The translations under genes and the position numbers were made by a program. From contig OZ025249.1 in the NCBI GenBank assembly GCA_964019135.1, positions 3,286,001-3,350,000 of the forward strand: a DNA stretch of 64,000 nucleotides. The letters are read 5' to 3'. This stretch comes from Arenicola marina (Eukaryota; Annelida; Polychaeta; Arenicolidae). The notes under the pieces were generated by a model, which worked only from the letters and a program-made list of their open reading frames with translations, was not told the DNA's origin and did no database searches. Of this stretch, positions 13,521-60,900 are shown piece by piece; positions within the stretch are counted from its first letter, which is position 1; every line of letters starts with the position of its first letter.

Positions 13521-14166
13521 CCCCTTGGCGACCCCCCCGCCACGCCCTCCCCAGCTCCCTGCCCCCCCCCCCCCCCCCCCTCCTGCCCTCCTGAACCACA
13601 CAACCGCTTCCCATCAATAAGTACAGCTATGGACTGATACCATACGAGACACGCCAGGAATGTCGTCTCCGTATTTACAACAGTCGTGTCATCCATACCA
13701 TAGCGCACCCTCAATATTTACAGAATTATCCGGCCTTAGTTGGCCCAAACAGTTGAACACTGCGCACATTTAAATGAAAATGTAAAATAGTCGCACAATA
13801 TTTGGTCTGACAATGGCCACACTGACCAATAATAATATTTGGTCCTTATTGCTAACATAATAAATAAAGGGGACACGAACGAACACGACCCGACCCGTGA
13901 CGAGAGCACCCTCCCGGTGCGTGAACCCCTGCTCCTCTCCTCCCCCTCTCCCCCCCCCCCTGTGCCCTGATTTTCTAGTTTCATTGCAAGTACCCCCCCC
14001 CCCCCCCTCATGTTGGGAGCGGTACACCGGTACTAATAACGACGGAATGGATACAGCCTTGATGTGCTATTAAAGCCCTTTAAATATTTACAATTGTAAT
14101 AATTAAACGTTGCGGCTCTTACGCATTCCCCGCAGTGGGCTGGTCTCTGTGGCCCGCAAACTTTAC
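13521..14166. repeat. Right copy of ~640 bp duplication
   Basis: Near-identical to 12,684-13,320. After its end the sequence continues into unique DNA, whereas the left copy stops at the gap. Confidence 0.93.
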
Positions 14167-17460: not shown

Positions 17461-17466
17461 CCTGGT

Positions 17467-17690
17467 GGTCATATCGCGTCAATGGGAGAAGGAAGGGAGG
17501 GTGGAGCCATGTCCCCGGGGGTAACCCCTTACTCTTTGCGAAGAAGGACATGGGATCTTTATCCTACGACCACACAGACATGGCCACAGCATGGCTCGAA
17601 ACCACCGATCCACGTGCCGTTAGGCTCTCAGGTGACCACAGCACTCAATGCGAGCGCTCTAACCCGCTGAGCTAAGGGCCGGCGCCCCAT
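17467..17690 (-). mobile_element. tRNA-derived SINE, full-length-looking, inside a minisatellite
   Basis: Minus-strand head has A-box TTAGCTCAGCGGGTTAGAGC and B-box GGTTTCGAGCC, then the shared body with CCCCCGGGGACATGGCTCC and tail TTGACGCGATATGA. It matches the copy at 22.2 kb from end to end. Array units on both sides show insertion into the 27-bp array. Confidence 0.88.
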
Positions 17691-22172: not shown

Positions 22173-22437
22173 GCCGGGGCGATAGCTCAGTGGGCCAGAG
22201 CGCTCGCATTGTGTGCTCTGGTAACCTAAAAGCCTAACGGCGCGTGGATCGATGGTTCGAGCCCTGCTGTGCCCATGTCTGTGTGGTCGCAGGATAAAGA
22301 TCCCATGTCTTTCTTCGTAAAGAGTAGGGGGTTACCCCCGGGGACATGGCTCCACTCTCCCTTCCTTCTTCCATTGACGCGATATGATCAAAAGTGGTTA
22401 CAGCGTCCTGAATATACAACTAACCAACCAACCATAT
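22173..22437 (+). mobile_element. tRNA-derived SINE, full-length-looking
   Basis: Head GGGGCGATAGCTCAGTGGGC with A-box, B-box GGTTCGAGCC at 22,254, a body with GTTACCCCCGGGGACATGGC and CTTCCATTGACGCGATATGA, and a tail of CAACTAACCAACCAACCA. Related to copies near 5.9 and 17.5 kb. Confidence 0.9.
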
Positions 22438-29885: not shown

Positions 29886-31434
29886 TTAGTCCCCACGCGG
29901 TCATCTGCACTAAGCCCCACCTCTCATAGTCTATATAAGCTTATAGGCATATAACAAAGAGTATGCAACAAAAAACCGGCGCTGCCAATACCGCCTTAAC
30001 TTTCTAGTCCCTCGGCAAGCTAAAATGCCATTATCCCACCATAGATCAACGTCTTCATTTCCAACATCACAAATAGTTTATCTTCTTAACTAAACTTACT
30101 TTAGATCATAATATTCGCAGTTACTACGGCAAAATGACGCATTTGTGCAGAACACCACACAATCCCACTTTTCACAGAGGGATCGCGATAGAGAGAACGC
30201 GCATTGTTGATGATGAAATTAAAGGACTTGTCATTTATCATCGGAATAGCTTAAGGAGGGGCGGGGGAGGCATTTATAGTATTGAAATCAAATGCGCGAA
30301 TTATTTATTTTATTCTCTCTATGAAAGAGAAATGGACAAATCTCAATCGAACCAAGATAAGGCAAAGTGAGCTAATCTCGACCCCTTAAGACAAAAAAAC
30401 GTCTATTTTCTTTAATAATATGAAATGAACTTATCTAAAACTGCAAAAGTACAAATTCGTACAATAATATCTTGGAACTATTATTTTATAGACTTTCTTT
30501 GGTTATCTTGGCGGCCATCTTGAAAATGGCGGCCATTTTGAAATATCTGACCTGAGTCCATAGTCCAATTTTTCCGTACCTCAAACTCTACAAGTGTACC
30601 AAATTTGATTCTTTTACCACAAGAGTACAATACATTGCAGGACCGCCGCGAGTACTAGTACATAGCAAGAATAGCAAAGCCACCGCCCCCCCCCCCCCCC
30701 TTCGCCGTTCCCCCACCACCCGGCCGCCACCAACCCTCACAGAGTGGAGGTGATGAAGATGCACGACGGCCTCTGCACCCAAATTTCTGCCCTACCAGAC
30801 TTTATCGATCCCGGCTTTCCCGCCCCATCAAATCCGGTCGCGCAAAATCACAATCAGAACGATTTCTTATCCCCCCCCCCATCCCCCACCCCTGGCACCC
30901 GTCCCCCACCCAAGACCCCCGGTGCAGCTCAGTAACCCCACCAAAGACAAACCTTCTACAAAATCCACACTCTACGAGGATCTTGAAGCTATTGTTAAAT
31001 TTACAAAAACGTTTCTGTTGATACGATACCGTTCAGGATACTGCGCTACCATTCAACCACGTGCTTTTGTTTACGTTTTAACACGGTATTTCCTAGGTGG
31101 CGCCTCGGTTTGTTTTGTCACAATTGGCCCATAGGGGAAGTTCACAGTTGGGCATCCTATTATACACTATCCTTGGTCTATCGCGATCCCTCTGTGAAAA
31201 GTGGGATTGTGTGGTGTTCTGCACAAATGCGTCATTTTGGCGTAGTAACTGCGAATATTATGATCTAAAGTAAGTTTAGTGAAGAAGATAACTTGGAAGT
31301 TTAGGCGGTATTGGCAGCGCCGGTTTTTTGTTGCATACTCTTTGCTATATGCCTATATATATATTATGAGAGGTGGGGCTTAGTGCAGATGACCGCGTGG
31401 GGACTATAATGAACGAAGAATTTAAGCGCTCGTG
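29858..31434. mobile_element. DNA transposon with long terminal inverted repeats, non-autonomous
   Basis: Ends are CACGAGCGCTTAA and its exact reverse complement, extending as inverted repeats over 29,858-30,191 and 31,177-31,434. Both arms share CCCCACGCGGTCATCTGCAC, AACCGGCGCTGCCAATACCG and TTTCACAGAGGGATCGCGAT (right arm reversed). The left arm carries about 70 bp extra. A perfect 8-bp target-site duplication flanks it. Eight bases fit hAT, P or Merlin-type superfamilies; the termini do not settle which. The ~1 kb interior has no transposase, so it would depend on one supplied in trans. Confidence 0.88.
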
Positions 31435-36900: not shown

Positions 36901-39900
36901 ATGCCATACAACCCCTTTATATTAGGACTACCTTTCGTTATACTGCATTAAGACAGATTAAATTTATTCCTCTGTGATATAGCTTTTAAATTAAATAAAT
37001 TAAAAACTTATTAAATCAGTTTACTGCTAATTATTATTAAAATTATGAGGTATATATATATTCTTTTCTTTTCAGGGGGACAAGAACAATGGATTTAATG
37101 TGCTTTATAATAATATGAAGCATGGCCATGAATCAAGCAAAGAATTTGCTGATTTCCTCAGAGAAAGGTAAGCAGTTTCTAATTGCAAAGTGGATGTATT
37201 GACATGATTAAGCCTTTCACATAGATATGTTGATTTAGAGAGTGACAGATATCATTATTAGTGGGTATCAGATTTCATTAATCCGAGCTTTATGGTGTAT
37301 AATATAATTTTTCTTATGTATGCGTTGTTATTAATTTGTTGTATCATTGGTTTCAGCTATGCTGTAGAAGAGACCTATGCCAAGCTCTTAGCTAAGTTAG
37401 CAAAGTATGCCAGTGGCTGCACCACAAGAGGGTCAGGGTAAGTACCTGGATAAGGACCAAGTGTCAAGACAATAATAATGGTACCGGTATATCTGAAAGC
37501 ATAGAGCACATAACAAAAAACAGCAGAAGTTAACAGAAGCAGAAGTTAGACAAAATGGATGTTTATCATTCCATGTTAAGACAGGTTTTGTGACAAACTC
37601 CATTGAAAATATTTGTTTAATCCACTCCTTATGAAAAAATCAAAGTATTCCATTTTTCTACAAAATTAATGGTGAACATTACTGATTTTTTTTACCGCAT
37701 GTTGCTTGTTATTTACTTAAAACATTGCAACAAAAAAAAAAAATGTCTCCAGGCTTGCTTTTTTGGAATATGAGGTTGAAAGATTACGATTATAAGATTA
37801 CAAGCATAATACCATAATCTTGATATATCATCAAGCTAGTGTTTTGCAATGTGACCTTGAACCATCCCATCCTAACCCCCTATAGAAACTCAGCATTGTC
37901 ACTTACAGACTTTCGGGGATTGCAAAAAATGAAGAAAAATTGGCCAACGGTCCTGACATTTTGATTTCATGTTATTTGATATGTGAATGGGATTCACATA
38001 AATTATACCAACAAATCTGCCAAAAACTATAACATTACCACCTTATGCATACTGATTTGTTTTTCACTGTTTACCTGTACTTTTATTGTCATTTTCCATT
38101 TTGATCAATACATGTCAAAATTATGTTTAATACACAGTGTAAGTTTTAGCAGTGTGGACCTGTGTTATACCGGCGTTGCTAGCAATGTGTCTCTCTTTGT
38201 CTGGCCAGGTCGTTCAGTCCCTTCTGGCAGGTACTGAAGGTACTGGCTGAGAAGCTGTCTAACCTGCACCTCCAGCTGGTCTATGCCTGGCAGGAACTCA
38301 TGAAAGATGTCCAACGATATACAGACGAGCAGTATAAGAAACAGAAAACGGTAAGCAGTTTTTTTAGGTTTTTTTATGGATCAGTTAAATTCATTCAATT
38401 AATTAAATTAATTACGGAATTAATCAGTAAAATTGTTGTTCTCAACAGACCAACATAAACTTACCGGTAGTAAAATTATAAGCAGGGTTAATGATATGAA
38501 TTAATTGCGTAAAAAATGCTTTATGGGACTTTTCTCCTTTTACTTTCTTCAGCTGAAGGCTTTGCCGAGCACAAGCTTCCTTTTGATAATGGTCTGCTAA
38601 TTATACTGACAGTGTCATCATAATACATTTTGAATAGGTATTTGTAGGCCAATCTGTTTCTTTTTACTAATATACCAGAATAATATGTTGTTAGGTCAAA
38701 GATCAGGAGGCGGGTACCATGGACACAGTGCACTGTATACAACAAACAATAGGCTCCCTACAGAAGGTGAGACACACTCTGGTCCTACAGGTCATCTCAT
38801 CCTGGTCATGATGGCCTACATGTCATTACTTAACCCTGGTCATGGTGGTCTGCCGATCATTACTTAACCCTGGTCATGGTGGTCTGCAGGTCATTACTGC
38901 ACACTGGTCATGATGGCCTACAGGTCATTACTTAACCCTGGTCTTGGTGGTATGCCGATCATTACTTAACCCTGGTCATGGTGGTCTGCAGGTCATTACT
39001 GCACACTGGTCATGATGGCCTACAGGTCATTACTGCACCCTAGTCATGGTGGTCTGCAGGTCATTACTTAACCCTGGTCATGATGGCCTACAGGTCATTA
39101 CTTAACCCTGGTCATGATGGCCTACAGGTCATTACTTAACCCTGGTCATGATGGCCTACAGGTCATTACTTAACCCTGGTCATGATGGCCTACAGGTCGT
39201 TAATTAACCCTGGTCATGATAGCCTACAGGTCATTGCTTAACCATGGTCATGATGGCCTACAGGTCGTTACTTAACCATGGTCATGATGGCCTACAGGTC
39301 ATTACTTAACCCTGGTCATGATGGCCTACAGGTCATTGTTTAACCATGGTCATGATGGCCTACAGGTCATTGCTTAACCATGGTCATGATGGCCTACAGG
39401 TCATTACTTAACCCAGGTCATTACTTAACCCTGGTCATGATGGCCTACAGGTCATTACTTAACCCAGGTCATTACTTAACCCTGGTCATGATGGCCTACA
39501 GGTCATTACTTAACCCTGGTCATGATGGCCTACAGGTCATTACTTAACCCTGGTCATGATGGCCTACAGGTCGTTACTTTACCCTGGTCATGATAGCCTA
39601 CAGGTCATTAATTAACCCTGGTCATGATAGCCTACAGGTCATTGCTTAACCATGGTCCTGATGGCCCACAGGTCGTTACTTAACCATGGTCTTGATGGCC
39701 TACAGGTCATTACTTAACCCTGGTCATGATGGCCTACAGGTCATTGTTTAACCATGGTCATGATGGCCTACAGGTCATTGCTTAACCATGGTCATGATGG
39801 CCTACAGGTCGTTACTTAACCATGGTCATGATGGCCTACAGGTCATTACTTAACCCTGGTCATGATGGCTTACAGCTCATTACTTAACCCTGGCCATGAT

Positions 39901-42900
39901 GGCCTACAGGTCCTTGCATAACCCTGGTTATGATGGCCTACAGGTCATTACTGCACCCTGGTCATGGTGGTCTGCAGGTCATTACTTCACCCTGGTCATG
40001 ATGGCCTACATGTCATTGCTTAACCCTGGTTATGGAGGTCTGCAGGTCATGATGGCCTGCAGGTCATGATGGCCTTCGGGGCATTGCTTAACCCTGGTCA
40101 TGGTAATCTGCAGGTCATGATGGCCTGCAGGTCATTGTTTAACCCTGGTCATGGTGGTCTGCAGGTCATGATGGCCTGCAGGTCATTGCTTAACCCTGGT
40201 CATGGTGGTCTGCAGGTCATTACTTAACCCTGGTCATGATGGCCTACAGGTCATTGTTTAACCATGGTCATGATGGCCTACAGGTCATTGCTTAACCATG
40301 GTCATGATGGCCTACAGGTCGTTACTTAACCATGGTCATGATGGCCTACAGGTCATTACTTAACCCTGGTCATGATGGCTTACAGCTCATTACTTAACCC
40401 TGGCCATGATGGCCTACAGGTCCTTGCATAACCCTGGTTATGATGGCCTACAGGTCATTACTGCACCCTGGTCATGGTGGTCTGCAGGTCATTACTTCAC
40501 CCTGGTCATGATGGCCTACATGTCATTGCTTAACCCTGGTTATGGAGGTCTGCAGGTCATGATGGCCTGCAGGTCATGATGGCCTTCGGGGCATTGCTTA
40601 ACCCTGGTCATGGTAATCTGCAGGTCATGATGGCCTGCAGGTCATTGTTTAACCCTGGTCATGGTGGTCTGCAGGTCATGATGGCCTGCAGGTCATTGCT
40701 TAACCCTGGTCATGGTGGTCTGCAGGTCATTACTTCACCCTGGTCATGATGGCCTACATGTCATTGCTTAACCCTGGTTATGGAGGTCTGCAGGTCATGA
40801 TGGCCTGCAGGTCATGATGGCCTTCGGGGCATTGCTTAACCCTGGTCATGGTGGTCTGCAGGTCATGATGGCCTGCAGGTCATTGTTTAACCCTGGTCAT
40901 GGTGGTCTGCAGGTCATGATGGCCTGCAGGTCATTGCTTAACCCTGGTCATGGTGGTCTGCAGGTCATTACTAACCCTGGTCATGATGGCCTGCATTTTA
41001 CTGGTTACCCGTATTTCATAGCTTAATGACTGTCACTTTTAAGTACGAGGTGGGACATTACGGCTACAATATAGCAGCTCTAGTAGTTTACCCCCGAAAG
41101 TATATTCATTTCACTACCAATGCTCTTGTGTAACTACAATAACTCGCAATCTTTTTTTCGGCAGGCCAAGGAGACTTATCATGCCAGATGTATTGAATAC
41201 GAGAAGCTCAAGAGAGATAATGCCTCGCAGAAGGACATTGAAAAAGTAAGAACTGAGAGCTACATTGATGTGATCAGATTCTCCTACGGATATAAACCTC
41301 TGTGAAAACGTTGAAGCCAGTATATATGTTTTATAATTGCACATTAGCTCCTGTTGAGAAATTTGTGTTTATTGACATCTTTATCTTAAACTCTCATTTT
41401 ATATTTTTCGTTATCAGGCGGAAATAAAGTTCAAGAAAGCAAGTGAGTATGCGAAGTCTTATATTGGGTTTTGAGTTTATACCGATCAGTAATGCTTCAT
41501 GGATGGAAATGACTTTATCATGTTACATTGCGTTAAGTCTGAGTGGGTTTAAGATATGTCATGCAATATTATGTTTTATTTGGTTTAACCTGCGGGTTAT
41601 GAGCTGTCACTTTGACTTTGACTGACCTCTTACTGTTAGTTACTTGTCGTTAGTCCTTATGGGAGTCGACCTCACGTAGTGGCTACCACAGCCTGAGCCG
41701 ACCTCACTTAGTGGCTACCACAGCCTGAGCCTACCTCACTTAGTGGCTACCACAGCCTGAGCCGGCCTCACTTAGTCGCTACCACAGCCTGAGCCGGCCT
41801 CACTTAGTGGCTACCACAGCCTGAGCCGGCCTCGCGTAGTGGCTACCACAGCCTGAGCCGACCTCACTTAGTGGCTACCACAGTCTGAGCCGACCTCACT
41901 TAGTGGCTACCACAGCCTGAGCCGGCCTCACTTAGTGGCTACCACAGCCTGAGCCGGCCTCACTTAGTGGCTACCACAGCCTGAGCCGGCCTCACTTAGT
42001 CGCTACCACAGCCTGAGCCGGCCTCACTTAGTGGCTACCACAGCCTGAGCCGGCCTCACGTAGTGGCTACCACAGCCTGAGCCGACCTCACTTAGTGGCT
42101 ACCACAGTCTGAGCCGACCTCACGTAGTGGCTACCACAGCCTGAGCCGGCCTCACTTAGTGGCTACCACAGCCTGAGCCGGCCTCGCGTAGTGGCTACCA
42201 CAGCCTGAGCCGGCCTCACTTAGTGGCTACCACAGCCTGAGCCGGCCTCGCGTAGTGGCTACCACAGCCTGAGCCGGCCTCACGTAGTGGCTACCACAGC
42301 CTGAGCCGGCCTCACTTAGTGGCTACCACAGCCTGAGCTGGCCTCACTTAGTGGCTACCACAGCCTGAGCTGGCCTCACTTAGTGGCTACCACAGCCTGA
42401 GCCGACCTCACTTAGTGGCTACCACAGCCTGAGCCGACCTCACTTAGTCGCTACCACAGCCTGAGCCGGCCTCGCGTAGTGGCTACCACAGCCTGAGCCG
42501 GCCTCACTTAGTGGCTACCACAGCCTGAGCCGGCCTCGCGTAGTGGCTACCACAGCCTGAGCCGGCCTCACGTAGTGGCTACCACAGCCTGAGCCGACCT
42601 CACTTAGTGGCTACCACAGCCTGAGCCGGCCTCACTTAGTGGCTACCACAGCCTGAGCCGACCTCACTTAGTGGCTACCACAGCATGAGCCGGCCTCACT
42701 TAGTGGCTACCACAGCCTGAGCCGGCCTCACGTAGTGGCTACCACAGCCTGAGCCGGCCTCACTTAGTGGCTACCACAGCCTGAGCCGCAGATCAACAGC
42801 TACTGGGGCCGTATTCAAAATCGCCACTTAGGCTACGCCACTACACTTAGCGCCAAGTGGAAGATTTATCGAGCGATTATCGGGTTTAAAATACATAAGT

Positions 42901-45900
42901 AGTCACCCAAGAAGTGAATTTTCTGAATTAAAAAAGTGCTACAATTTTATTGAAAAGGATTTCTTAATCATGAGCACAACCACAACGAGCTGGTGAGGCT
43001 CAGACACAAATGCACTTTTCGTGCGTAACTTACGAGGGGATTATAAATACAGCCTCTGGAGGGGTTTTAGTAAAAAGTAGGGTAGAACACCAATGTTTGA
43101 TTTCTCTCTTCCTCGTCTACAGATGATGATTACCGGGGATTGGTGGACAAATATGCCAATGTCAGAAATGACTTTGAGACCAAAATGATAGAGTCCTGCA
43201 AGGTATGTTGTAATCGGATACCCTGTTTGGTGCGGTTAGCAGATGTCGGCACGGTACAGTACAGAATGGTGTCTGTCCTAGTAAGCAGAAAACTAAACTA
43301 CTGAAGTATATCAGTCTTCGTTCGGACACACTGTTTCGACTGTGTTTACTTTGCGCTGAATATGTGTAATTATTGTAGCGTACCAATAGATTCTTCGCCA
43401 GTTCATTTATATTTATTAACCCAAACTTCGGAATCTGTGTGTGTATGATGACCTTGTATTTTACAGAGATTTCAAGAGCTTGAAGAACATCACCTGAGTC
43501 AAATGAAGGACTTTGTGGACACGTACACCAAAGCCTGGGAGAACCAACACGCACTCATAGACCAGGTAATCCATCGTAGACCAGGTAATCCATCATAGAC
43601 CAGGTAATCCATACTAGAGCAGGTAATCCATCATAGGCTAGGTAATCCATCATACCGGTAGACCAGGTAATCCATAGACCAGGAAAATAATAGACCAGGT
43701 AATCCATCATAGACCAGGTAATCCATAGGCCAGGAGAATCATAGACCAGGTAACTCATAGATCAGAAATCTTGTGCATCAGGCAAATATTAGACAATCTG
43801 ACTCGTAGACCGCTCCACTCCTACCCTAGATTGTTTGGGGACTAGGTAACTTGCAGACCATGTAACTGACAGATTAGGTGCCTTATGGGCCAGATCCCAT
43901 TTAGACCAGGTTGGTAAGTAACCATGGACCAGGTAGATGTCAGACATGAGCAGTCTCCCACTGTCTTTCTTTTAGTACACCTACCTATTCCAGGGGTTCG
44001 CCTGAAGCTATGTTTCCTTTCCCCCCTGTTCTGCCATTTTCATTGTTTGTAGAAGTTAACAGTTGTATTTAAACAGTCCAGTTTAAAAATAATGCAGTAT
44101 TAATATAATACAGTTCAGTTAATGCCTAGCCTAGGCCTGGGCGTGTGAGTATCGTTGGTTCACTGGGCGGTTGGTGCACTGGGCGGTTGGTTCACCGGGT
44201 GGTTAGTTCATTGGGGGGTTGGTTCACTGGGCCGTTGGTGCCCTGGGCGGTTGGTTCATTGGGCTGTTGGTTCACTGCGGTTGGTTCACGGAGCTGTTGG
44301 TTCACTGGGCGGTTGGTTCACTGAGCTGTTGGTTCACTGGGCGGTTGGTTCACTGAGCTGTTGGTTCACTGAGCTGTTGGCTCACTGGGCGGTTGGTTTA
44401 ATGGTTGTTTCTTGTTCCCCTGCGTTAGGTTCATGACGAGTTCCGGAATAACTGCGCCGACCTGACGGTGGACAAGTTGCTGGAGGCCTTCGTCCAGGGC
44501 AAGACAACCGGCACGGAGAGACCAGGTGAGCGCGGGGCCGGGGCTGGTGAGGGGTGAGGAGACCGGTGGGTGTGTGTGTGGATGTGGGGGGTGGAAGTGA
44601 AAGTATCGTGCCTGATGTGAGCGCAATAGCTGATGTGGGTCACTGATATGCCTTTATGGAAACCAGTAGCCAAATGCCTGATGTGGAGACCGGCGTTGGC
44701 AGCCCTTACATGTGGCCTAATAGGTCACGTGACAGCAGTCGGCGTGTTGTGGTGCTAAGGGGTCACCATCGGTCGGCGTGTTTATTGTGCTAAGGGGTCC
44801 GGTCACCTTCAGTTGTCCTTCCTCCTGACCCCGTGTTATAGAATGGTTTGGGTCTTCTCAGGTTTTGTTACATCGGACGCCCCCCACCCCCACCCTCCCC
44901 TGTAGATGGTCTGGTCTTACCCGACCCGCCACTGCTGTCTGACCCCAGGACACCCGTTCCTGCTACCTGGTATAGGAACACTCCTATAGCGCCAACTCTC
45001 TTTCAACCAGTGTATGCTGTTGGTACCTTGATATATTGGAATTATCCTTCAATAATATCTCTTGTCAAATTTATTATTGACCTAGTGTGGATAGTACTTC
45101 CAACACTTTAAAGAGTAAACTAGTTATAGCCCTGCCATGTAATAAACTGCCTTTGTATTGTCCCCCGACATGGCAGCCCAGTTACTATGGAATGTAACTG
45201 CAGGTATACTACACACGCCGAACAACGCGATTTAATTTGATTCGTTCGTGTTTTATAGTATCTCTATCGTCTTGTCTTTCCTTGTTAGTGCATGCGTCGG
45301 TCAGTTCCACCTATAGTTAATCGTTTTACCGTTTTTTTTTATATTCCGTTGTATAAGAAAAATCTGTGCACTTATGGCGAGCCAGTTGCATGTTTACGTT
45401 TTTTTTAATAAACTGGCCACAATTGGCAAGATGATAGGCTATTTATATCAGATTATGCTCCGTATGTTTTGATCTGACAAGAACTTTTATTAGTTCATAT
45501 TTTGAATCTTTTTGTTCACTTTAATTGTTATTTCTGTGTGTCCGATAGAAACCCGTGTTTTCATGCTGTTTTTTTCCACTGATACGAGTAAGCGATATGT
45601 TACACAGCTATGTAAACTGTTTTTTCATGTGGTGAATCTGCTCATGACGATCGGTTTAGTCTGTCTCCTAATGTCTTTGATCTAAAGTGTTTGCCTAGAT
45701 TCATTCCTCTTTGACATAACTTCGCTCATCACGGATCGTGGACGGCGCACGGTCGTACAATCGAGTTACTCTCCATCCTCTTCCAATTTCTTCCACCTTG
45801 TCCTTTGCTTATAAGGAATGGATATTAAATGTCACTCCCGACATTACCTGCCACCTGTAAATAGCACAATAACCAATGGGGAGATGTCCTTGGTATAGGA

Positions 45901-48900
45901 ACTGATGGCTAAGTAATTGTGGTGTACGCTTGGGTTGTCAAGGTCCCATCGAATTTGAAGACACGGACCTGTCCTCCCTGCCGCCGCCGAGCGGGACGCC
46001 AGACCAGGACAAGAGGGAGTTCCCGGTACTGGAGAAGCCGAAGAAGGAGGGCGGACCGGCAGGTACGTCCACGCTCACACGTCACAATCAACTTATACGT
46101 GGTTGCCACGCTACCGTGGTTGCCACGCAACCGTGGTTGAGTCCTGACTTTCGCGTGTGTGCCAGGCAACCCTCCATGTGTGATAATCAGTCCCGTGGGC
46201 CGCTCTGTTCTGCCCGTTTAGGTCTCCTGGTAGTGTTCTGTGGTTTCCCGGTACACCCTGCTACGTTGTTTATGAAGTAGTCCCACCTCTGGTTTCTAGT
46301 AAAACAGGTGTTGCGTTTGTTGATGTTAATTGTTCACCACGCACAGACGCCTCGCAACACCTCTTTATCTTACGCTCGAACTGCCCCCTGGTGTCTCCCC
46401 GGGGAGGATGGCGTCTTGAGTCAACGCGCTCTCCCCCTGAACTTTGACCCGGTTTTCAATATTGAGGCGATCTTGCAGCAGTCCCGAGCTTCGTGCCGTG
46501 GAATTTGTGCCGGGTTCGCGACATGGTATCCGTGACGTACGCTGTGCGTGGTGAAGAGTTACACTTGTACATTTGATTATCATCAGCCTGTACAAAGGAT
46601 ATTCCGTCGGATGATAAAGTGGCATGGAAGACATTTGCTTCCCATTCTTACTATGTAGAGCGTCGATTAGTATCTTGGTTTTACAAGATGTGCATCTTGG
46701 GGGCTTAAATGGTTTGTAGCTTAACCTGGCATAGGTATATGTATTCTGTCTCGAGAGCCATTTAAGTTTTATTTGCATGTGTTTTAGTTAGGTGTAATGC
46801 CAGAACGGAACATTTTGCGCGCCTTGTATAACTTGTGTCTTCACGACACGCGTAGTAACAATAAATACCCTCTGACCTGTAATTAATTCGCTGTGTTATT
46901 TAATAAAGCAATCAACGTTTATGTTTTTCTCACAAATATTGCTCTATAGGAAATGTCCCGTTCACTTAGCATGCCGCTGTCACACTTTCTGTTGTGATGT
47001 CTGCTTGTTGACACTGGTGGATGTGCCGTGTTGTGTTTAACTGGCTTTGATTGTTGTCACCTTGGTTGCTCGCTAGATGTGTAGACCCCTGTATCCTTTA
47101 TGCTATCCGTATCTTCCCGTTGTATGCAATAGCCTATTTTTACGGCTTTCTGCTGAAAAGTACATATTTTTATGGTGGAAAAATCTTTTGACTGACTTGT
47201 TTCTTCCAAGAACTGAAGAGAGAATTTGATGACTTTGATGTCATTTTCAGACAATACTTCGCAAGGGAGCCCGGAAAACCAGACCAAATCTCTCTCTATT
47301 TTGGACCGGACCCTCCCGCTGAGGGCATCAACTGGCTGTAATTCATAACTATTCACTTCTCGTTACTGGCCCTCATCTCACCCCTCACTCTCACCCTACA
47401 CTGGACTATACAGTAGCTATAGGTCCCCCCCCCCCACGGACCTCGCACCACGCCGCTCTCCATTTATAACGGCTTCTTTTGCTTTGTGGGCCGCGCGCCA
47501 ATAGATTGTAGTGTTATTGTGAGTCTTTATTTGAATGGACACCATAATCGTCCTTATTTATTACTGTTTTCTGTAAGTTACTTTATGGACATTACTTAAA
47601 TTTTTATTTCTCTCGATTTATTGATTCGTTTATGATTTTGTGGCTTACTGCTAAGTTGTACAGCAATTACGCGCATATACTGTGCAATTATTATGTAGGG
47701 GGTAGGGTGGGGGTGGCTATGATTTGTAGGCTATGCCCTGGAGGAAGGTAAAAACACGCTGAAGACTTCATAATGATAACACAGGAGAGTTAAGACAAAT
47801 CCTTTAGTGGTACGGTATTGAATTAAACTGATAAGGTGACAAGAATCCTTTAGAGAGGTCAGTAAGCTCACAACGACAAAGTGCGTTCGACGCTTCCTTG
47901 CCTAACACATCATACGATTTTATACCACTACAAATTGAAGATTATTAATATAATTATATGCACTACAACCTTCATTATGTCTTGTGCTTTTCGTGTTTAT
48001 CATGTGACTCCTTATCCAGACTAATAAGTTTCATTTTCACTAAACGTCTTTATTGCGACGAAAACATTTATTCTGACCAGTCCTTTCCTGTTACAATTAC
48101 TACAACCAATAAATCGTTTTATATATGTATTGAGTTCCATGATCAACCTTAACTATTTTTTATTCTCACTACATTTCTTCCTTACCACTAGATTCTGTAT
48201 CAATACACTTGTTATGCTCACTTTTCTTATTATCACTACATTTCTTCATTGTTACTACATTTCTTTATTCTGACTACAGCCTTATTCTGACCTACAGCTT
48301 TATGCTTTTGTTACTTTGTTGAGAGCCTTTTATCATAGTGTGGATGGTCTTTTGTCACTTCTGGAGAGTCCCTTTAGGACAATATCACGGACAGCTTATT
48401 GTCATCTTACTGAGAGACACTGTACTGAATTCTTGTTGTCATCATACGAAGGGGAAATATCACTGAAAGCTTATCTTACGAAAGCACAATATCACTGAAA
48501 GCTTGTCATCTTACTGAGAGACACTGTACTGAAAGCTTGTTGTCATCTTACGAAGGGAAAGTGTCACTGAAAGCTTAGGATCTTAAGAAAGCACAATGTC
48601 ACTGAAATGTTGTCATCTTACGAAGGGGCAATATCGCTGAATGCTTATTTTTATCTGTCGACGGGACAATGTCACTGAAAGCTTGTTGGCATTATACGGA
48701 AAGGCAATGTCCATGAAAGCTTATTGGCTTCTTACGGAAAGACAAAGTCACTATGAAAGCTTATTGACATCTTACGGAAAGACAGTCACTGAAAGGTTAT
48801 TGGCATCTCACGGAAAGACAAAGTCACTGTGAAAGCTTATTGACATCTTACGGAAAGACAGTCACTAAAAGCTTATTGGCATCTCACGGAAAGACAAAGT

Positions 48901-51900
48901 CACTATGAAAGCTTATTGGCATCTTACGGAAAGACAAAGTCACTCGGCATTCTGCTATCCCCAGAACGTTGTGCAATGTATATGGGCAATGCTGTAGTGT
49001 TCCTATTTTACGAGCGTTTTTCGCATTTATTTCATTTGTCTTGTGACTACCGCTATCCAATGTTTGGCATGCATGTTGCCGGATTGCATGGCGTTGTCTT
49101 CTGTTTAACATGGCGGATGGTCACTCACTGGAGGTCACGTTCAATTAGTTAATTATCGGGAGGTCGGATATTAATTGGTGGATGAGAAGGTGATGGCAAC
49201 ACTAATAAACTATAACAGTATAGTATACTGATATGTGGGCGCTGTAGCCGGCCGGCTTCGCTGTACACCATCCTAACCGATTACAATGGGTATCGCCCAC
49301 TCTTATTAAATCGTTCATCTAATATCACGGTAGGCGTGTAAGTGTCTTATAACCATGCAGACCATAAGACTGCCTTCAGTCGATATTTCTCTATGGAATA
49401 TCGAATGTTTCTCGTGCTTTATGTAGGTGTCGATATCATAAGACTGATTTTCCAACAGGACTTCGCAGTTTTGTCTTGTTTCCTCTTTGCACGTTTTTGG
49501 AAATGCTCACAAGTATTCCAAGCCGCGTACAGTTCAGGCACTATGTGTATTACAGCAACAACTAATCCGTCCACTCACTCACCAAGAGTGTATGCCACGA
49601 AGTATTATCTTCACGGAAACGAGGCTGAAGATGACCTCGCTGTCTGAAACAAAAACAGGTCTTAAACCATTTTTTCTGTTCTTCAGTGCGTTTGTAGTAC
49701 GTTTTATTATGTGTTATCATGGAGAAAGTCACAGCACACATGCAGAGGTTTACCTTGTCCGTTATTATTCACAGGGTTTCTGAAGAGCAGAAAGAAGGAA
49801 AAGAAGAAAAAGAAGAAGGAAAAGGATAAAGAAACGTAGGGACATGGGTCTTATAGTAATCGTTATAATCATTGTAATCATTGCAATCACCTTGGCATGG
49901 CGGTATATAGCCATATAGTACAGCCCAGGACTCGTGCATCATAATACAATAGTTTACAACGGTATACAGTTTAGTGAAGTCTAGCACGGAAGTACATGTG
50001 TTGGTAACAAACGTTCTATATGTCGTGCACGTTTGCTCTCTTTTTTTTTCCAGCATTTTGATACAAATCTATTACTGGCCGTCTAGCATACAATTGTATG
50101 AGCAAAACGGGTTTTTTCTTATGTGTAACTTACGCATTATATGGTACATATGAATTATGTGTTCATGAGACAACAAACAATTCGTCACATATTTCTTCTG
50201 GAAAACCTGCTCCTGGCGTTTTCAAAAAGTGACAAATCCTGGCCCATAGTATACTTTGTTTTTCATGCGCTCTGTGTATTTCCTTCTGAATGCTCTCTCT
50301 CCTGTTGTAGGGAGAGCAACGGGTCAGAGAAGGTGAGTAGTTTTGTTTGCTCTCATTTGTCACTAAAGCCTAAAAGACTCAACGATTATTGTTACTTTTT
50401 ATCATAATGTTACCATTCCATACTACCTTTGAAGTTCTTGCTAATAAGTGTTTACTTGGTAGTTACCTCACGAGGATTATCTCGCAGACACTTAGGTACC
50501 ATTATAAATACATATAACGTGGTGTCTCTTCCCCTCGACAGGGCCAGCCTAAAGTCGACGATTATCTCGCAGACACTTAGGTACCATTATAAATACATAT
50601 AACGTGGTGTCTCTTCCCCTCGACAGGGCCAGCCTAAAGTCGACGAGGATGGATTCAGCATCCGACCAGAAAATGCCTCCGAGCGTATCCTTGTCCACAT
50701 CTTATTCACCGCTAGTCGCTCTCTCGTTCTGCTGCCATCTTGTCTGTCCTGGCTTCATTGCGCCGTCGGTCGCTCCCTGCCGCCTGTATCTAGGTGTATG
50801 TTTCACCCAACCCCATCTCATTATCCCGGGCGGTCTCACCCAACCCCATCTCATTACCCCGGGCGGTCTCACCCAACCCCATCTCATTATCCTGGGCGGT
50901 CTCACCCAACCACATCTCATTATCCCGTGCGGTCTCACCCAACCCCATCTCATTATCCCGGGCGGCCTCACCCAACCCCATCTCATTACCCCGGGCGGTC
51001 TCACCCAACCCCATCTCATTACCCCGGGCGGTCTCACCCAACCCCATCTCATTACCCCGGGCGGCCTCACCCAACCCCATCTCATTACCCCGGGCGGTCT
51101 CACCCAACCCCATCTCATTACCCCGGGCGGTCTCACCCAACCCCATCTCATTATCCTGGGCGGTCTCACCCAACCCCATCTCATTATCCTGGGCGGTCTC
51201 ACCCAACCCCATCTCATTATCCCGGGCGGTCTCACCCAACCCCATCTCATTATCCTGGGCGGTCTCACCCAACCCCATCTCATTATCCCGGGCGGTCTCA
51301 CCCAACCCCATCTCATTATCCCGGGCGGTCTCACCCAACCCCATCTCATTAACCTGGGCGGTCTCACCCAACCGCATCTCATTATCCCGGGCGGTCTCAC
51401 CCAACCCTATCTCATTATCCTGGGCGGTCTCACCCAACCCCATCTCATTATCCTGGGCGGTCTCACCCAACCCCATCTCATTATCCCGGGCGGTCTCACC
51501 CAACCCCATCTCATTATCCTGGGCGGTCTCACCCAACCCCATCTCATTATCCCGGGCGGTCTCACCCAACCCCATCTCATTATCCTGGGCGGTCTCACCC
51601 AACCCCATCTCATTATCCCGGGCGGTCTCACCCAACCCCATCTCATTATCCTGGGCGGTCTCACCCAACCCCATCTCATTATCCTGGGCGGTCTCACCCA
51701 ACCCCATCTCATTGTCCCGGGCGGTCTCACCCAACCCCATCTCATTATCCCGGGCGGTCTCACCCAACCCCATCTCATTATCCTGGGCGGTCTCACCCAA
51801 CCCCATCTCATTATCCTGGGCGGTCTCACCCAACCCCATCTCATTATCCCGGGCGGTCTCACCCAACCCCATCTCATTATCCTGGGCGGTCTCACCCAAC

Positions 51901-54900
51901 CCCATCTCATTATCCCGGGCGGTCTCACCCAACCCCATCTCATTATCCTGGGCGGTCTCACCCAACCCCATCTCATTATCCCGGGCGGTCTCACCCAACC
52001 CCATCTCATTATCCCGGGCGGTCTCACCCAACCCCATCTCATTATCCCGGGCGGTCTTACCCAACCCCATCTCATTACCCCGGGCGGTCTCACCCAACCC
52101 CATCTCATTACCCCGGGCGGTCTCACCCAACCCCATCTCATTATCCCGGGCGGTCTCACCCAACCCCATCTCATTATCCCGGGCGGTCTCACCCAACCCC
52201 ATCTCATTATCCCGGGCGGTCTCACCCAACCCCATCTCATTATCCTGGGCGGTCTCACCCAAACCCATCTCATTATCCCGGGCCATCTCATCCAACCCCA
52301 TCTCATTATCCCGGGCGGCCTCACCCAACCCCATCTCATTACCCCGGGCGGTCTCACCCAACGCCATCTCATTATCCCGGGCGGTCTCACCCAACCCCAT
52401 CTCATTATCCCGGGCGGTCTCACCCAACCCCATCTCATTATCCCGGGCGGTCTCACCCAACCCCATCTCATTATCCCGGGCCGTCTCACCCAACTCCATC
52501 TCATTACCCCGGGCGGTCTCACCCAAACCCATCTCATTATCCCGGGCGGTCTCACCCAAACCCATCTCATTATCCCGGGACGTCTCACCCAACCCCATCT
52601 CATTATCCTGGGCGGTCTCACCCAAACCCATCTCATTATTCCGTGCGGTCTCACCCAACCCCATCTCATTACCCCGGGCGGTCTCACCCAACCCCATCTC
52701 ATTATCCCGGGCGGTCTTACCCAACCCCATCTCATTATCCCGGTCGGTTTCACCCAACCCCATCTCATCATCCCGGTCGGTTTCACCCAACCCCATCTCA
52801 TCATCCCGGTCGGTTTCATGGCCCAGTTTAGGGTTCATGTACCAACACGTGACATAAAGCTGATATATATAGTATAACTCACTGTCAATATATGCCAGTA
52901 GTATACTATTGCACTTTTCGTAGGTAAAGTTTCTAGCGTTAGACCTTACGACCGTTATATATACATCAGTTCAAACTTTGTATATAACTTTGTTATATAT
53001 ACCAAAATACCTACAAGACCTTTGGTTTTTGCCATACAACGTCGACCCCATGGTGCCATGAGTGGCTCCATGGACGTGAACCAATGGCTTGTGCTCTTCC
53101 TTGACTGTGTAAAGACCAAAACGACCGTGACAGCTGGTACTCCAGCTCCGACAGCGACTCCGGTGAGTAAAGCTGCACCCCCCCCACACCCACCCCCACC
53201 GCACGGCCACCAGTGTGAGATGTCAGTTGTAGCTGAGCATGTCGGTTCAGCAGTTGCTTCCCCTGAGAAACTTGTTACATATCTTCAATAGAAATGCTGT
53301 GTGAAGGGCCTTATCACCTAAATTCATGTCCTGGTGTATATAACAATAGTATGGGATAAGTAAAGTGGAATTTTGACCGCACAAAAACACAATTTGGCAA
53401 GACATTTGTGCATCTCGTGTGAAAAATTAAGGCCTTTTTGGGCACTACGTCATAAAAACTGCCTTTTTCTGGATGAAGAGTTAACAATTAACATGATCAG
53501 AAAAGTCTTAGTTCCGGTAGCTAACTTGTTAACAAACATTTGAAAGACATTATACAAGTGAATAATATTGCTACCTGAGAGGTTTTAAGTGAACTAATCT
53601 GGCTACTTTAAACCACATCTGTCTGCGGAGTATACATTGAAACGGGTCTTTTATATGTTGAACAGATCAAGAAAACCGGACGAGCAAGATAAAAGTGGAG
53701 ATCAAGCCGTTCAGCCCCAATGGAGGCACGCCGTCCGACAACGTGGACGACATCAAAAAGTCTATAGAAGGCCTTCGACTATCTCCCACTACAAGTGTAA
53801 GTCAGATAACTAGTTCTCAAAAAAATCTATAGAAGTGCTTCGACTATCTCCCACTACAAGTGTAAGTCAGATAACTAGTTCTCAAAAAGTTTGACGGATT
53901 TTTATCCATAACAGACCTATTTAACCCTTTAATGCCAGAAATTGGTCCATTGATCAAGACGAACACTCGTCGTCCATTTTGTGTCCGTATATATTCCGCG
54001 CTATTTTAACCCTGTAATGCTAGTAATGTGCCATGTGTTGTTTACAGAGGCGAACGCCGACCAACGACGCCAACATGAAGAGGTCTATATCCGTCTCCGA
54101 GACTATGAAGTACGTTCTCTAATGGATTTTCGCTATGATTAACTATAACATTGCTACCATTTAATACAATTAAAGCGGGAACTGCCTTCGAGGCCAAGTC
54201 CTAAATTAATTGAACTTTAATTCTATATAGTTTATACTACGGTATTAGTATTGTTTTTATTTTTATGGTAATGGGGATACCGTGCCTAATTGCATTCTGT
54301 AAATACTAATACAATTTGCGCGATTGTGTAATATACTTCAGCGAGCCTTAGCTATATTGTGTGTATGTGATGTGTATGTTTCAGCACTGCGGTCAAGCCG
54401 AGCCAGGATCTGCTGGGGTTAGACATCTTCGGGAACTCTGCCTCGTCCAGCGCTTCCACACCGACTGGCGGCAACTACTCCTTCCCGTCCGCCATGAACC
54501 GGGAGGGCCTCTTAGTCAGCTCAAACAGCACGATGACTACCCCAGCCACGACCCCCAGTAAGTCACCCCACCCCACCCCACCCCAGTCACGACCCCCAGT
54601 AAGTTACCCCGCTCCACCCCACCCCACCCAACTACCCGTCCGCCATGAACCGGGAGGGCCTCTTAGTCAGCTCAAACAGCACGATGACTACCCCAGCCAC
54701 CACCCCCAGTAAGTCACCCCACCCCACCCCACCCCACCCCAGTCAGGACCCCCAGTAAGTTACCCCGCTCCACCCCACCCCACCCAACTACCCGTCCGCC
54801 ATGAACCGGAAGGGCCTCTTAGTCACCTCAAACAGCACCATGACTACCCCAGCCACGACCCCCAGTAAGTCACCCCACCCACTACGGCCACGACCCCCAG

Positions 54901-57900
54901 TCACCGCACCCCACCCCAGCCGAGCCACGACCCCCAGTAATTCACCCCACCCCACCCCAGCCCAGCCACGATCCCCAGTAAATCACCCCACCCCAGCCAC
55001 GACCCCCAGTAAGTCACCCCACCCCACACCACCCTACCCCAGTCACGGCCCCCAGTAAGTTACCCCGCCCCACCCCACCCAACTACCCTTCCGCCATGAC
55101 CCGGGAGGGCGCCTTAGTCAGCTCAAACAGCACAATGACTACCACAGCCACGACCCCCAGTAAGTCACCCCACCCACTACGGCCATGACCCCCAGTAAGT
55201 CACCCCACCCCACCCCACCCCACCCCAGTCACGGCCCCCAGTAAGTTACCCCACCCCACCCCACCCCACCCAACTACCCGTCCGCCATGAACCGGGAGGG
55301 CCTCTTAGTCAGCTCAAACAGCACCATGACTACCCCAGCCACGACCCCTAGTAATTCACCCCACCCACTACGGCCACGACCCCCAGTAAGTCACCCCACC
55401 CCACCCCACCCCACCCCACCCCAGTCACGACCCCCAGTAAGTTACCCCGCCCCACCCCACCCCACCCCACCCAACTAGCCTCTTAGTCAGCTCAAACAGC
55501 ACAATGACTACCCCAGCCACGACCCCCAGTAATTCACCCCACCCACTACGGGCACGACCCCCAGTAAGTCACCCCACCCCACGGTATCTGTTGCCATGTC
55601 ACACTGACGGTATCTGTTGCCATGTCACACTGACGGTATCTGTTGCCATGTCACACTGACGGTATCTCTTTGCCTCCTGTTACAGCGGTGGACGACTCCT
55701 TGGGGACTAGGTCGGGCACCCCTCCCGTCGCCGCCTCGCGCTACCAGCGGTGTCAGACCCCCACGGGGCTGCTGGGCGGGGTGGCCCCCCTGCTTCCCGG
55801 CCCGCCCCCGCCCACCCGGCCTGGACACCGACCCCCTGTGGCCGCCGCCCACGTACGTCACCGCATGCTGTGTCACCTCGTGGCCCTGTCACCTCGTGGC
55901 CCTGTCACCTCGTGGCCCTGTCACCTCGTGGCCCTGTCACCTCGTGGCCCTGTCACCTCGTGGCCCTGTCACCTCGTGGCCCTGTCACCTCGTGGCCCTG
56001 TCACCTCGTGGCCCTGTCACCTCGTGGCCCTGTCACCTCGTGGCCCTGTCACCTCGTGGCCCTGTCACCTCGTGGCCCTGTCACCTCGTGGCCCTGTCAC
56101 CTCGTGGCCCTGTCACCTCGTGGCCCTGTCACCTCGTGGCCCTGTCACCTCGTGGCCCTGTCACCTCGTGGCCCTGTCACCTCGTGGCCCTGTCACCTCG
56201 TGGCCCTGTCACCTCGTGGCCCTGTCACCTCGTGGCCCTGTCACCTCGTGGCCCTGTCACCTCGTGGCCCTGTCACCTCGTGGCCCTGTCACCTCGTGGC
56301 CCTTTCGGTCTCTCGTGAGACAGCCCTCTAAAGCTGTAGCTTGTGGCTGCGAAAAGCTCTTTGATCAAGCTCTTTTATTTAATTCTTTTTTTATATATTT
56401 GTATGGCGACAACCCGCTTCTCTAATGTGCGGCAAGCATTATCTATAAGCCATAACCTACATGCCGCCTTGTATGATATCTATAAGCCAGAACCTACATG
56501 TCGCCATGTATGATATCTATAAGCCATAACCTACATGTCGCCATGTATGATATCTATAAGCCATAACCTACATGTCGCCATGTATGATATCTATAAGCCA
56601 TAACCTACATGTCGCCATGTATGATATCTATAGGCCATAACCTACATGTCGCCATGTATGACATCTATAAGCCATAACCTACATGTCGCCATGTATGATA
56701 TCTATAAGCCATAACCTACATGTCGCCATGTATGATATCTATAAGCCATAACCTACATGTCGCCATGTATGATATCTATAAGCCATAACCTACATGTCGC
56801 CATGTATGATATCTATAAGCCATAACCTACATGTCGCCATGTATGATATCTATAAGCCATAACCTACATGTCGCCATGTATGATATCTATAAGCCATAAC
56901 CTACATGTCGCCATGTATGATATCTATAAGCCATAATCTACATGTCGCCATGTATGATATCTATAAGCCATAATCTACATGTCGCCATGTATGATATCTA
57001 TAAGCCATAACCTACATGTCGCCATGTATGATATCTATAAGCCATAACCTACAGGTCGCCATGTATGATATCTATAAGCCATAACCTACATGTCGCCATG
57101 TATGATATCTATATGAGTGCGGATAGTATATTTTTGCAGTAACTGTCGAATGGTCGTCGTGAGGTATCGCGCCACTAAACTTACTCAGCTCCTGTTGCTT
57201 ATGGTTCTCCTTACGGCCGCTGTGTGTCGCTGCAGGCGACAGCTCGGCCGACGGGGCGCCAGAGCCCAGCCCTTCGGGAGCGAGCCGACAGCGTCCCTAG
57301 CCTCAACAACGTGTCCTTCAACTCCTCGGCCTCGGCGTGGTCGTCACGTGGTCCCAGTCCGCTCACCATCGGCATGGCCGACTCCATCCCGCTGGCCGTG
57401 GCCTTCTCCGAGACAGTGCACGCCTACTTCAAGGGTAGCAACAGCCAGAGGTAGGTCAGGGTGCGGGGGGAGGGGGGGTGGGGTATGCTGGCCGTGGCCT
57501 TCCCCGAGACAGTGTACGCCTACTTCAGGGGTAGCGACCCCCAGAGGTAGGTCAGGGTGGGGTGGGTTGGGGGGGGGGGGGTATGGTGTCCTTGGCCTTC
57601 TCCGAGACGGTGCACGCCTACTTCAAGGGTAGCGACCCCCAGAGGTAGGTCAAGGTGGGGTGGGGTTTAGGGGGGGGGGGAGTGGGGGTATGGTGGCTTT
57701 CTCCGAGACAGTGCACGCCTACTTCAAGGGTAGCGACCCCCAGAGGTAGGTCAGGGTGGGATGTGGTGGGGGGGGGGGGGTATGATGTCCGTGGCCTTCT
57801 CCGAGACAGTGCACGCCTACTTCAAGGGTAGCGACCCCCAGAGGTAGGTAAGGGTGGGGTGGGGCGGGCGTATGGTGTCCGTAGCCTTCTCCGAGACAGT

Positions 57901-60900
57901 GTACGCCTACTTCAAGGGAGGCGATCCCCAAAAGTAGGTCAGGGTGGGGTGTGGTGGGGGGGGGGGGGTATGGCGGACTCCATCCCACTGGCCATGGCCA
58001 CCACCAGAGGTAGGTCAGGGTGGGGTGTTGTGTGTGGTGGGGGGTATGGCGGACTCCATCCCGCTGGCCATGGCCACCGCCAGAGGTAGGTCAGGGTGGG
58101 GTGTGGTGGCGGGGGGGGGGGTGTATGGTGGACTCCATCCCGCTGGCCATGGCCACCGCCAGAGGTAGGTCAGGGTGGGGTGTGGTGGCGGGGGGGGGGT
58201 GTATGGTGGACTCCATCCCGCTGGCCATGGCCACCGCCAGAGGTAGGTCAGGGTGGGGTGTGGTGGCGGGGGGGGGGGGTGTATGGTGGACTCCATCCCG
58301 CTTGCCATGGCCACCGCCAGAGGTAGGTCAGGGTGGGGTGGCGAGAGGCGTAGTCTGTTTGACTAATGTAATAGTTACCCTGCCACACTTTCCATAACGC
58401 CAATTGTGTATTGTAATATAATATATTATATATATCTGTGCCTTGCTTGAAGTGTTAAGTATGCCTCGATGGCCTTTCAGTACGTTATATCTATAAAACA
58501 GACCAGTATAGTGTTCCTTTACCTCCCGCTGGCTTCTACTTTGTCTATAAGTATTGTTTGTACGTTTGCAGCTGTCGGGTGAAGTTAACCGGGGATTTGA
58601 TGATGTCATTTCCGGCCGGCGTCGTCCGACTATTTACCGAAAACCCCTCTCCCTCCACGCTGTGTTTTCATCTGAAGAACATAACCCCACTAGAACACAT
58701 CCTGGTGAACAAACTGCTGATATCAGAGTAAGTAGGACGCAAAACAAAAGACATTGTCCAACTAATGCCACACTTTGGCTGCCACGATTGCCAACATTAA
58801 TGGGGGCTTTGTGTATACATGCGCTGGTCAATGAGTATTTACGTTCTTGACGTTAGGGCATCAACTATCTTTTTTGTAATTCGACTGGGGCCTAATTACC
58901 TAGAATTCTAGACAATTAGGTAACCAGTCAGAAGAAGGAAAGACAAAGGTTTGGCCGTTAACGAGTTTATTCCAAACAAACTGTGAAAGAAGGCGGCCAA
59001 GGACTCGCCTTCAGCCGCGGGAGGGTGGCTGGAGGCGGGTTCCGGCCAAACCTTTGGGGGGGGGGGGGGAGATGGGTAGGGGTGAAAGCAGAGGCGGTTA
59101 GTCAGTGGGCTGGGCGGGTGGGTGGACAGCGAATGGCCCGAGTGGGAGTGAGGCAGCCATGCGCCGAGTCACCTCAAGCCGGTGACCCAAAGGGATAGTG
59201 AGGTAGCGCAGGTAGGCTGACGAGTGCCAGTCCCCGTGGGCCTGCAGGAGCTCTGTGGGGACTCCCGCCAGAAAGGCGGCCGTGCAACCCCCGAGCCTGA
59301 AGGAGTGGCCTGCGTAGTGCGAGGGTTGTAGGCCGCGGCCCGCAGCAAGGCGCGGAGGGAGGAGGTCAGTGTGGAGTGGGTGAGGGTGGTGAGGCCAGAG
59401 CCAGAGGGGTAGCTGAAGGCAGGGGCGGAGTGGGGCGCTGGAACGAGGGTACAAAGGCGGTCATAGGCGGCTACCGGGTCAAGGGGGGAGCCAGGTATTG
59501 CGCAAATGGGGATAGTTAAAACACGCTGACCGAACTGGACTGCCTTTGTCTTTGTTAAGGTCAGTAGCAAACCAAACTCTGTCCTAGTGACCGAACCGCG
59601 AGATAAATGTCTGGCGGGGTCGAAAGCGGAAGGAGAAGGTGGGAAAAGGTTAGATTTGCGAAGGAAGGCAAAGAAGGCGATGAGGAAGGCGGCCCAAACT
59701 GCGGTGTGAACAGGGGAGGAAGGGATGAGGAGGCGGGCGAGGTTAAGGAGGATATCTGGGGAGATGGGGAGCTTAGCGAGGGGGGTCAACCCCAACCGCT
59801 TCTTCGCCGACATGAGGGCTAGTTTAACATCAAAGGAGTCAAAGGACTCGAGCGACAAGGCGAAGCAGCGGTGTCAAGTGCGGATGCCGTGGACGTAGTT
59901 TTATAGCGACTGGTAACTCCGTAAGGAGTGGGCGAGTAACGTGATGAAACGGCAAAGATTGAGGGAAGAGGCAGGCAAGGCAGGGAGATCGTAAAACTGG
60001 CAGAAATTGAGGAATGCAGTCCATTGAGAGCGGAAATTTCTTGCGGTGCCAGGAGCAAAGGCCTCTCGGATGGCTCGGCAAGTGGCGCTATCTAGGTCAG
60101 CAAGCATTGTCGCTGAAAGAGAGGAGGGAATATGATAGCGGGTATGGTCAACTAAAGAAAGGGTTAAAGCACAGTACACAACGACGCGAAAAAACTAGTA
60201 GTAGTTAAAATGCAGTAATATAAAGCATATTTGGTCAAGAGAGTCACTAAGGGCCTAAGCCGATTCAATGTCAAATAGAGGCCGGGGCACGGCGCATTCA
60301 GTCAATTCCTGCGAGGCCGTGGCTTCCGAGAAGCGTTGCGGGTATGTTGGGTCGGTGTGCCAGCGGCTCAGTAGGTCTGGCAAGGTGTTCTGGGATGTAA
60401 ATACAGCGGACGGTGAAGTGATGTTCGGCCTCGGCGTACCACATGAAAGGCGACCGTGAACGTCCGAAGTTGACTGTGTACCAAACGCCTTCGTTATCAC
60501 ACTTGATTACGGGCTTGCGACGTGCGAATAGCTTGCCCCACAGGCGGCAGGCAACATGGGTAGAACAGGCCGGGAGGTGCGGGCTGCTGGGACGGTGTCG
60601 ACGGTGGCGCCACGGGTGGCGCCTGAGGGCTGCGATGCGCTGTTGATTGCGCATCCGCTGGTGCCTGGATCAGCGCTGGCGCGGGGACTTGGGGCTGGAT
60701 CAGCGCTGGCACGGGGGCTTGTGGCTGGCTCGGCGTTGTCGTGGGGACTTGTGGCGTTGCTGGCGGCGCCTGGACCTGCGGGGCTCTGTCGCTGCCAGAC
60801 AACAGATAGTTGATCTGTGCCTGCTGCCCCTCCATCAGCTGAGCCATTCGGTTTAGCGTCTCGTTGTGCTGTCCGAGGGATGGTTCCCCCGAACAGGATG

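Follow-up and report, generated by a model that had tools for sequence, protein, structure and literature searches.

Tandem repeats across five splice junctions of a predicted FCHO-type muniscin gene in Arenicola marina

How can a single gene carry tandem repeats across five of its splice junctions and still encode an unbroken protein? The question is raised by a 64,000-nucleotide stretch of Arenicola marina DNA (NCBI GenBank assembly GCA_964019135.1, contig OZ025249.1, positions 3,286,001 to 3,350,000 of the forward strand), called the window here and numbered from its first base. The original prediction held that minisatellites are born repeatedly at the exon-intron junctions of one gene in this window, four of them at donors and one at an acceptor. 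Tandem Repeats Finder (TRF) together with an exon map confirms tandem repeats that cross the donors of exons 9, 16, 18 and 20 and the acceptor of exon 14, although four donors to one acceptor is too small a sample to indicate a donor bias. It is very likely that these are mirage-type minisatellites, that is, junction-spanning tandem duplications that survive because everything beyond the exon-adjacent copy is spliced out. The parallel that had been drawn with the 'mirages' of amphioxus is apt and documented (PMC3087553; PMC3902484).

The gene lies on the plus strand at 33909-63284, where 25 coding exons and 24 GT-AG introns give a single open frame of 870 codons. Its conceptual product, of 870 aa, matches the Pfam families muHD (E 7.2e-57) and FCH (E 2e-15), and its best matches among solved structures are the F-BAR chain of FCHO2 (2v0o, E 1.2e-82) and the muHD chains of SGIP1 and FCHO1. 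Since an F-BAR domain stands at the N-terminus and a muniscin mu-homology domain at the C-terminus, and the closest structures come from FCHO2, SGIP1 and FCHO1, the predicted product is assigned to the FCHO-type muniscins. Proteins of this type are endocytic adaptors that bend membranes. The numbering of the five exons used in the original prediction matches this 25-exon map.

Junction-spanning arrays and the reading frame

All five repeats lie on the plus strand of the gene and are free of N. Two of them consist of two copies each. At exon 14 (50627-50684) a duplication of 85 bp at 50471-50646 spans the acceptor, with 98% identity by TRF, and places a decoy exon start at 50542 ahead of the authentic one at 50627. 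At exon 16 (53666-53796) a duplication of 65 bp at 53755-53888 spans the donor, with 95% identity by TRF and a decoy donor after 53861. The donor of exon 9 (43467-43565) lies in an array at 43555-43765 with a unit of about 19 bp and eight CAGGTAA copies, the authentic one included. That of exon 18 (54385-54557) lies in a composite array at 54484-55582, which holds six copies of the exon end, again counting the authentic one, and 16 alternative donors, 12 of them with the identical 9-mer. The donor of exon 20 (57236-57450) is spanned by an array at 57396-57973 with a 98-bp unit in six copies including the authentic one, and a related array with a 76-bp unit continues it at 57934-58340; the two linked arrays carry 11 donor-bearing units, authentic included. 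The arrays take in 11 exonic bases at exon 9, 20 at exon 14, 42 at exon 16, 74 at exon 18 and 55 at exon 20. Copies are 69-89% identical at exon 18, and 77-89% in the exonic part of copies 2-6 at exon 20.

To place these junctions among all others in the gene, 45 bases around each of the 48 junctions were compared with the adjoining 300 intron-side bases, and 802 positions outside arrays, treated as on the donor side, served as controls (median 15, 95th percentile 21, 99th percentile 32). Five junctions, namely the donors of exons 9, 16, 18 and 20 and the acceptor of exon 14, score 51-90, and at each of them the repeat unit carries both exonic and intronic bases across the splice site. The remaining 43 score 12-19. 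Degenerate mirages were sought at all 48 junctions and none above background was found beyond the five; likewise, with the TRF threshold lowered to a score of 30 (33900-63300), no further junction-crossing array was seen by eye. As the scores are bimodal and half-decayed examples are absent among the 48 junctions, the five arrays either arose recently or have had their copies kept alike.

Spare splice signals are abundant in these arrays. Donors were scored with a position-weight matrix built from the gene's own donors, and at a threshold of 3.0 the four donor arrays contain 64 alternative donors (7, 1, 16 and 40 at exons 9, 16, 18 and 20, respectively), 28 of which are identical to the authentic 9-mer (6, 1, 12 and 9). 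Not one of the 64 would keep the frame if used in place of the authentic donor, and the single spare acceptor, the first of the two at exon 14, leads to a stop after 12 codons. The 870-aa frame takes the exon-proximal copy at all five junctions. Because no other scored donor, nor the other of the two acceptors, keeps the frame, that copy must, to judge from the frame and leaving aside the hypothetical cassette exons considered below, be the site used in five of five cases. Exon definition would favour an exon-proximal site. The idea that array copies serve as extra exons was tried and rejected: the four donor arrays hold just two sites that reach the 10th percentile of the gene's own acceptor scores, and both belong to the exon 20 array, compared with 132 in 15,578 non-array intron bases (8.5 per kb).

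The exon 20 arrays also bear on history. In an alignment read by eye, the 76-bp unit combines the donor with upstream exon 20 sequence and shows an apparent internal deletion. Because the exon sequence in this unit comes from a point ahead of the first array and seems to have lost an internal piece, at least two overlapping duplications probably occurred here. At positions that the internal copies have in common, the authentic one departs from them: the used copy encodes KGSNSQ, and the five full internal copies, translated by eye, encode Asp-Pro for Asn-Ser. At the aligned position SGIP1 has GADPSK and FCHO1 has GGEHNR. At this one site, the unused copies may keep an older state lost from the used exon, a reading to which the FCHO1 residues give no support.

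We propose the following course of events. In a genome with a high rate of local tandem duplication, a segment across a splice junction would be duplicated. With the exon-adjacent copy intact, the spliceosome would join the exons as before, and the extra copies would end up in the intron. Such a duplication would presumably be nearly neutral and could persist. Because the spare copies lie on the intron side, where they are invisible to the protein, arrays of this sort would be tolerated and able to grow, as three of the five may have done, reaching 8, 6 and 11 copies at exons 9, 18 and 20 with the authentic one counted. Arrays that disable the working site would be removed by selection.

Chance, selection and competing explanations

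Whether five junction arrays are many or few depends on what is counted. Under an event null, each array was taken as one duplicated unit placed at random, either touching no exon or spanning one junction. For the 20 arrays of the gene, merged by hand from TRF output and with hand-picked units, five junction arrays are seen against 1.33 expected (P = 0.0076); for 17 arrays, with the exon 20 pair merged and two arrays in a mobile element dropped, 1.11 are expected (P = 0.0032). When a common unit length is imposed, P becomes 0.0002 for 20 bp, 0.022 for 65 bp and 0.069 for 100 bp. The excess by array number is modest, and its P values are nominal and merely descriptive because the gene was chosen for its pattern. 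Under a base null, in which the array map was rotated or flipped along the gene and selection was disregarded, the result is instead a depletion: arrays cover 38.7% of intron bases, so that 17.3 of the 48 junctions are expected to lie in arrays, and five do (P(<=5) = 0.0024). Coverage is 17% in the first 10 bp of introns on the donor side and 4% in the last 10 bp on the acceptor side, and reaches 38-52% beyond 200 bp, a gradient such as selection predicts. Given this low coverage near splice sites and the depletion in the base count, arrays for the most part stay clear of splice sites, and of acceptors more strongly than of donors. The notable point is the number of separate events that have passed the filter of selection. 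The claim that the placement is far from random thus survives when events are counted (5 versus 1.1-1.3) and is turned around when bases are counted (5 versus 17.3), and a strong non-random birth at junctions finds weak backing in five of 17-20 arrays set against this avoidance of splice sites.

Several points weigh against mirage-type duplication filtered by selection as the whole account. The excess of events over uniform placement means that something beyond chance and selection may be at work. In the exon 20 array, two hypothetical cassette exons, 18 and 75 nt long and both weak, would be compatible with the frame; their acceptors score 4.5 and 4.0 against a gene median of 7.6. Faithful splicing is judged here from the reading frame rather than from RNA. 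Finally, the breakpoint microhomology, which speaks for this account and fits slippage or microhomology-mediated duplication as the founding step, was seen in the two two-copy cases only. The breakpoints share 9 bp (TCAAAAAGT) in the exon 16 duplication and 8 bp (ACGAGGAT) in that of exon 14, whereas two controls, duplications located upstream of the gene, share 1 and 3 bp, and random breakpoint pairs in this repetitive gene share at least 8 bp in 0.6% of 20,000 draws.

Among the alternatives, the one that survives best, unlikely as we consider it, is that splice junctions and especially donors are true hotspots of minisatellite birth, for example through co-transcriptional R-loops, G- or C-rich stretches after the donor or AGGT slippage. 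The event counts speak for it, with five of 17-20 arrays founded on a junction where 1.1-1.3 are expected (P 0.003-0.008). In addition, three of the 15 arrays that touch no junction start within 35 bp of a donor, against 0.82 expected (P = 0.039), a limit that was fixed after the distances of 18, 34 and 35 bp were known. C-rich and G-rich stretches can be seen by eye after exons 18 and 20, but no such stretch follows the donors of exons 9 and 16. The tests, moreover, are post hoc and concern one gene selected for its pattern, P rises to 0.022 or 0.069 when all units are set to 65 or 100 bp, and the base count shows depletion rather than excess. A broader version of the idea, in which donors are intrinsic minisatellite nurseries here, the exon-proximal site is picked among up to 13 identical ones and the spliced-out copies are coding fossils (the five exon 20 decoys with Asp-Pro, as in SGIP1), strikes us as doubtful.

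Two arrays had been placed 15-30 bp from the donors of exons 5 and 19. The distances turn out to be 34 bp for the intronic array at 38801-40992 (plus strand, 34-bp unit), past the exon 5 donor, and 18 bp for that at 55871-56303 (plus strand, 16-bp unit), past the exon 19 donor. A derivation of these arrays from donor sequence looks plausible by eye but finds no support in the donors' score of 17, which 25% of controls reach.

Errors of assembly, for instance haplotypes left unmerged, are very unlikely to account for any of the duplications. The window does hold a probable false duplication of this kind, in which a 200-N gap separates two stretches of about 640 bp that are 97% alike (12684-13320 and 13521-14166); the copies in the two-copy duplications at exons 14 and 16 also agree closely (98% and 95% by TRF), and the BflGb6 mirage was misassembled in the B. 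floridae draft according to the cited part of PMC3087553. Against this stand the absence of N from all five junction repeats, the divergence among copies of the larger arrays (69-89% at exon 18, 77-89% at exon 20) and the breakpoint microhomology in both two-copy cases.

We give about as little credence to the view that the decoys are functional and form a battery of alternative sites tuning the output of the gene, for example via nonsense-mediated decay. It would fit the 28 of 64 decoys that match the authentic 9-mer and the loss of frame from any of the 64, but chance also gives frame loss, and splicing is reported as regular for lancelet Adh3 and globins in the passages of PMC3087553 cited here.

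It is scarcely credible that the arrays are stages or remnants of intron gain through the tandem duplication of a segment carrying AGGT, a mechanism established elsewhere (PMC3443670, as cited in part) and proposed for lancelet mirages (PMC3087553): the model requires both intron ends to come from one segment, whereas the far end carries a copy of the junction segment below 5% of shuffles in none of the five introns (shuffles reaching the far-end score: 0.98 for exon 9, 0.058 for exon 16, a borderline 5.8%, 0.46 for exon 18, 0.85 for exon 20 and 0.81 for exon 14) and the donor arrays hold next to no usable acceptor-like sites, which leaves the suggested link to AGGT intron gain unsupported here. 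The arrays appear to lengthen pre-existing introns.

Other features of the gene and the window

A candidate alternative last exon lies 3' of exon 11 at 47211-47341, with an acceptor, 42 in-phase codons and a stop; its use would give a 348-aa protein without the mu-homology domain, and a Pfam search with the 42 codons gave no match. Intron 14 (50685-53114, GT-AG) looks like a U12-type intron of the minor spliceosome when held against the familiar U12 donor and branch consensus strings. Its donor, GTATCCTTG, differs from RTATCCTTY at one position, and the branch site TTCCTTGAC, an exact match, ends 9 bases upstream of exon 15. The best among the remaining 23 introns have three mismatches in the donor and two in the branch motif; taken singly, each motif occurs in the window at about chance frequency. 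Intron 21 contains an insert at 58879-61470, bounded by 40-bp direct repeats (92.5%), whose minus-strand frames resemble by eye a tyrosine recombinase and an RNase H-like piece (DIRS- or Crypton-like); pieces of it searched against Pfam gave no match.

Of the 33.9 kb upstream of the gene (1-33908), 12.6 kb are tandem repeats, and therefore the whole region, beyond this gene, is rich in minisatellites. A dispersed repeat occurs there in three copies (5872-6006, 17466-17674 and 22183-22390; 75-92% alike), each with a different minisatellite (units of 14, 27 and 36 bp) at a distance of 4 to 83 bp, the array lying on the same side of the repeat in all three. One end of the repeat resembles by eye the head of a tRNA-derived short interspersed element; ARAGORN finds no tRNA. 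Inverted repeats at 29887-30192 and 31177-31406, with blocks of 115 and 122 bp (98% and 90% alike) about 1 kb apart, are perhaps the ends of a DNA transposon. A second gene was looked for in 1-33 kb by Pfam searches of seven of the 121 listed open frames, with nothing above the cut-off and one chance-level match (E 0.17). Searches with Rfam and, for tRNAs, with ARAGORN gave no match.

Comparison with known systems

To our knowledge, every known mirage has a cephalochordate host. The cited portions of the literature describe tandem repeats that straddle exon-intron boundaries of B. floridae globin genes, with Adh3 as an earlier case and two further loci cited, and report regular splicing, haplotype length differences and a proposal of intron gain (PMC3087553); PGBD5, with units of 60 and 108 bp, was added later together with a citation of TnC (PMC3902484). 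In these lancelet mirages (Adh3, BflGb6 and BflGb9, PGBD5, TnC), as in the present gene, repeats span 5' or 3' exon-intron boundaries and offer spare splice sites in many copies. Their units measure 10 to 160 bp and splicing is apparently regular (PMC3087553, PMC3902484), with which the intact 870-aa frame here is consistent. Border copies of the lancelet globin mirages diverge as the authentic exon 20 copy does (PMC3087553). In contrast to the lancelet cases, five junctions are affected within one gene, one of them with 16 alternative donors, and the present case is known from DNA alone.

Other systems are less close. Intron gain by AGGT tandem duplication likewise copies splice-site sequence in tandem, but the segments here span existing junctions and a new intron is not seen. 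Human variable internal tandem repeats in segmental duplications have units of minisatellite size, some of them at exon-intron boundaries; the portion of the report cited here describes them as lengthening coding sequence or as tied to novel introns in recent paralogs, whereas the frame is unaltered in our gene (PMC2812944). The repeats of earthworm metallothionein lie inside the first intron and, in the part of the source that we cite, are not described as junction-spanning (PMC12783039).

The practical lesson for annotators is that intronic copies of an exon need not be exons. Our literature search found no genome-wide test of mirages, and the hotspot idea merits one. Within a single gene, the five junctions make it possible to test how splicing picks out the authentic site when identical copies lie a few dozen bases off, and whether minisatellites arise with greater frequency at splice sites or simply persist there. 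The arrays thus belong to a known kind and are mostly explained by it, although their number within one gene is unusual. Three things are new here: one gene has five cases, one site carries 12 identical decoy donors, and an earlier form of exon 20 seems to be preserved in decoys. With a lancelet host the gene would be a further member of the mirage kind; with any other, it would extend that kind to another animal.

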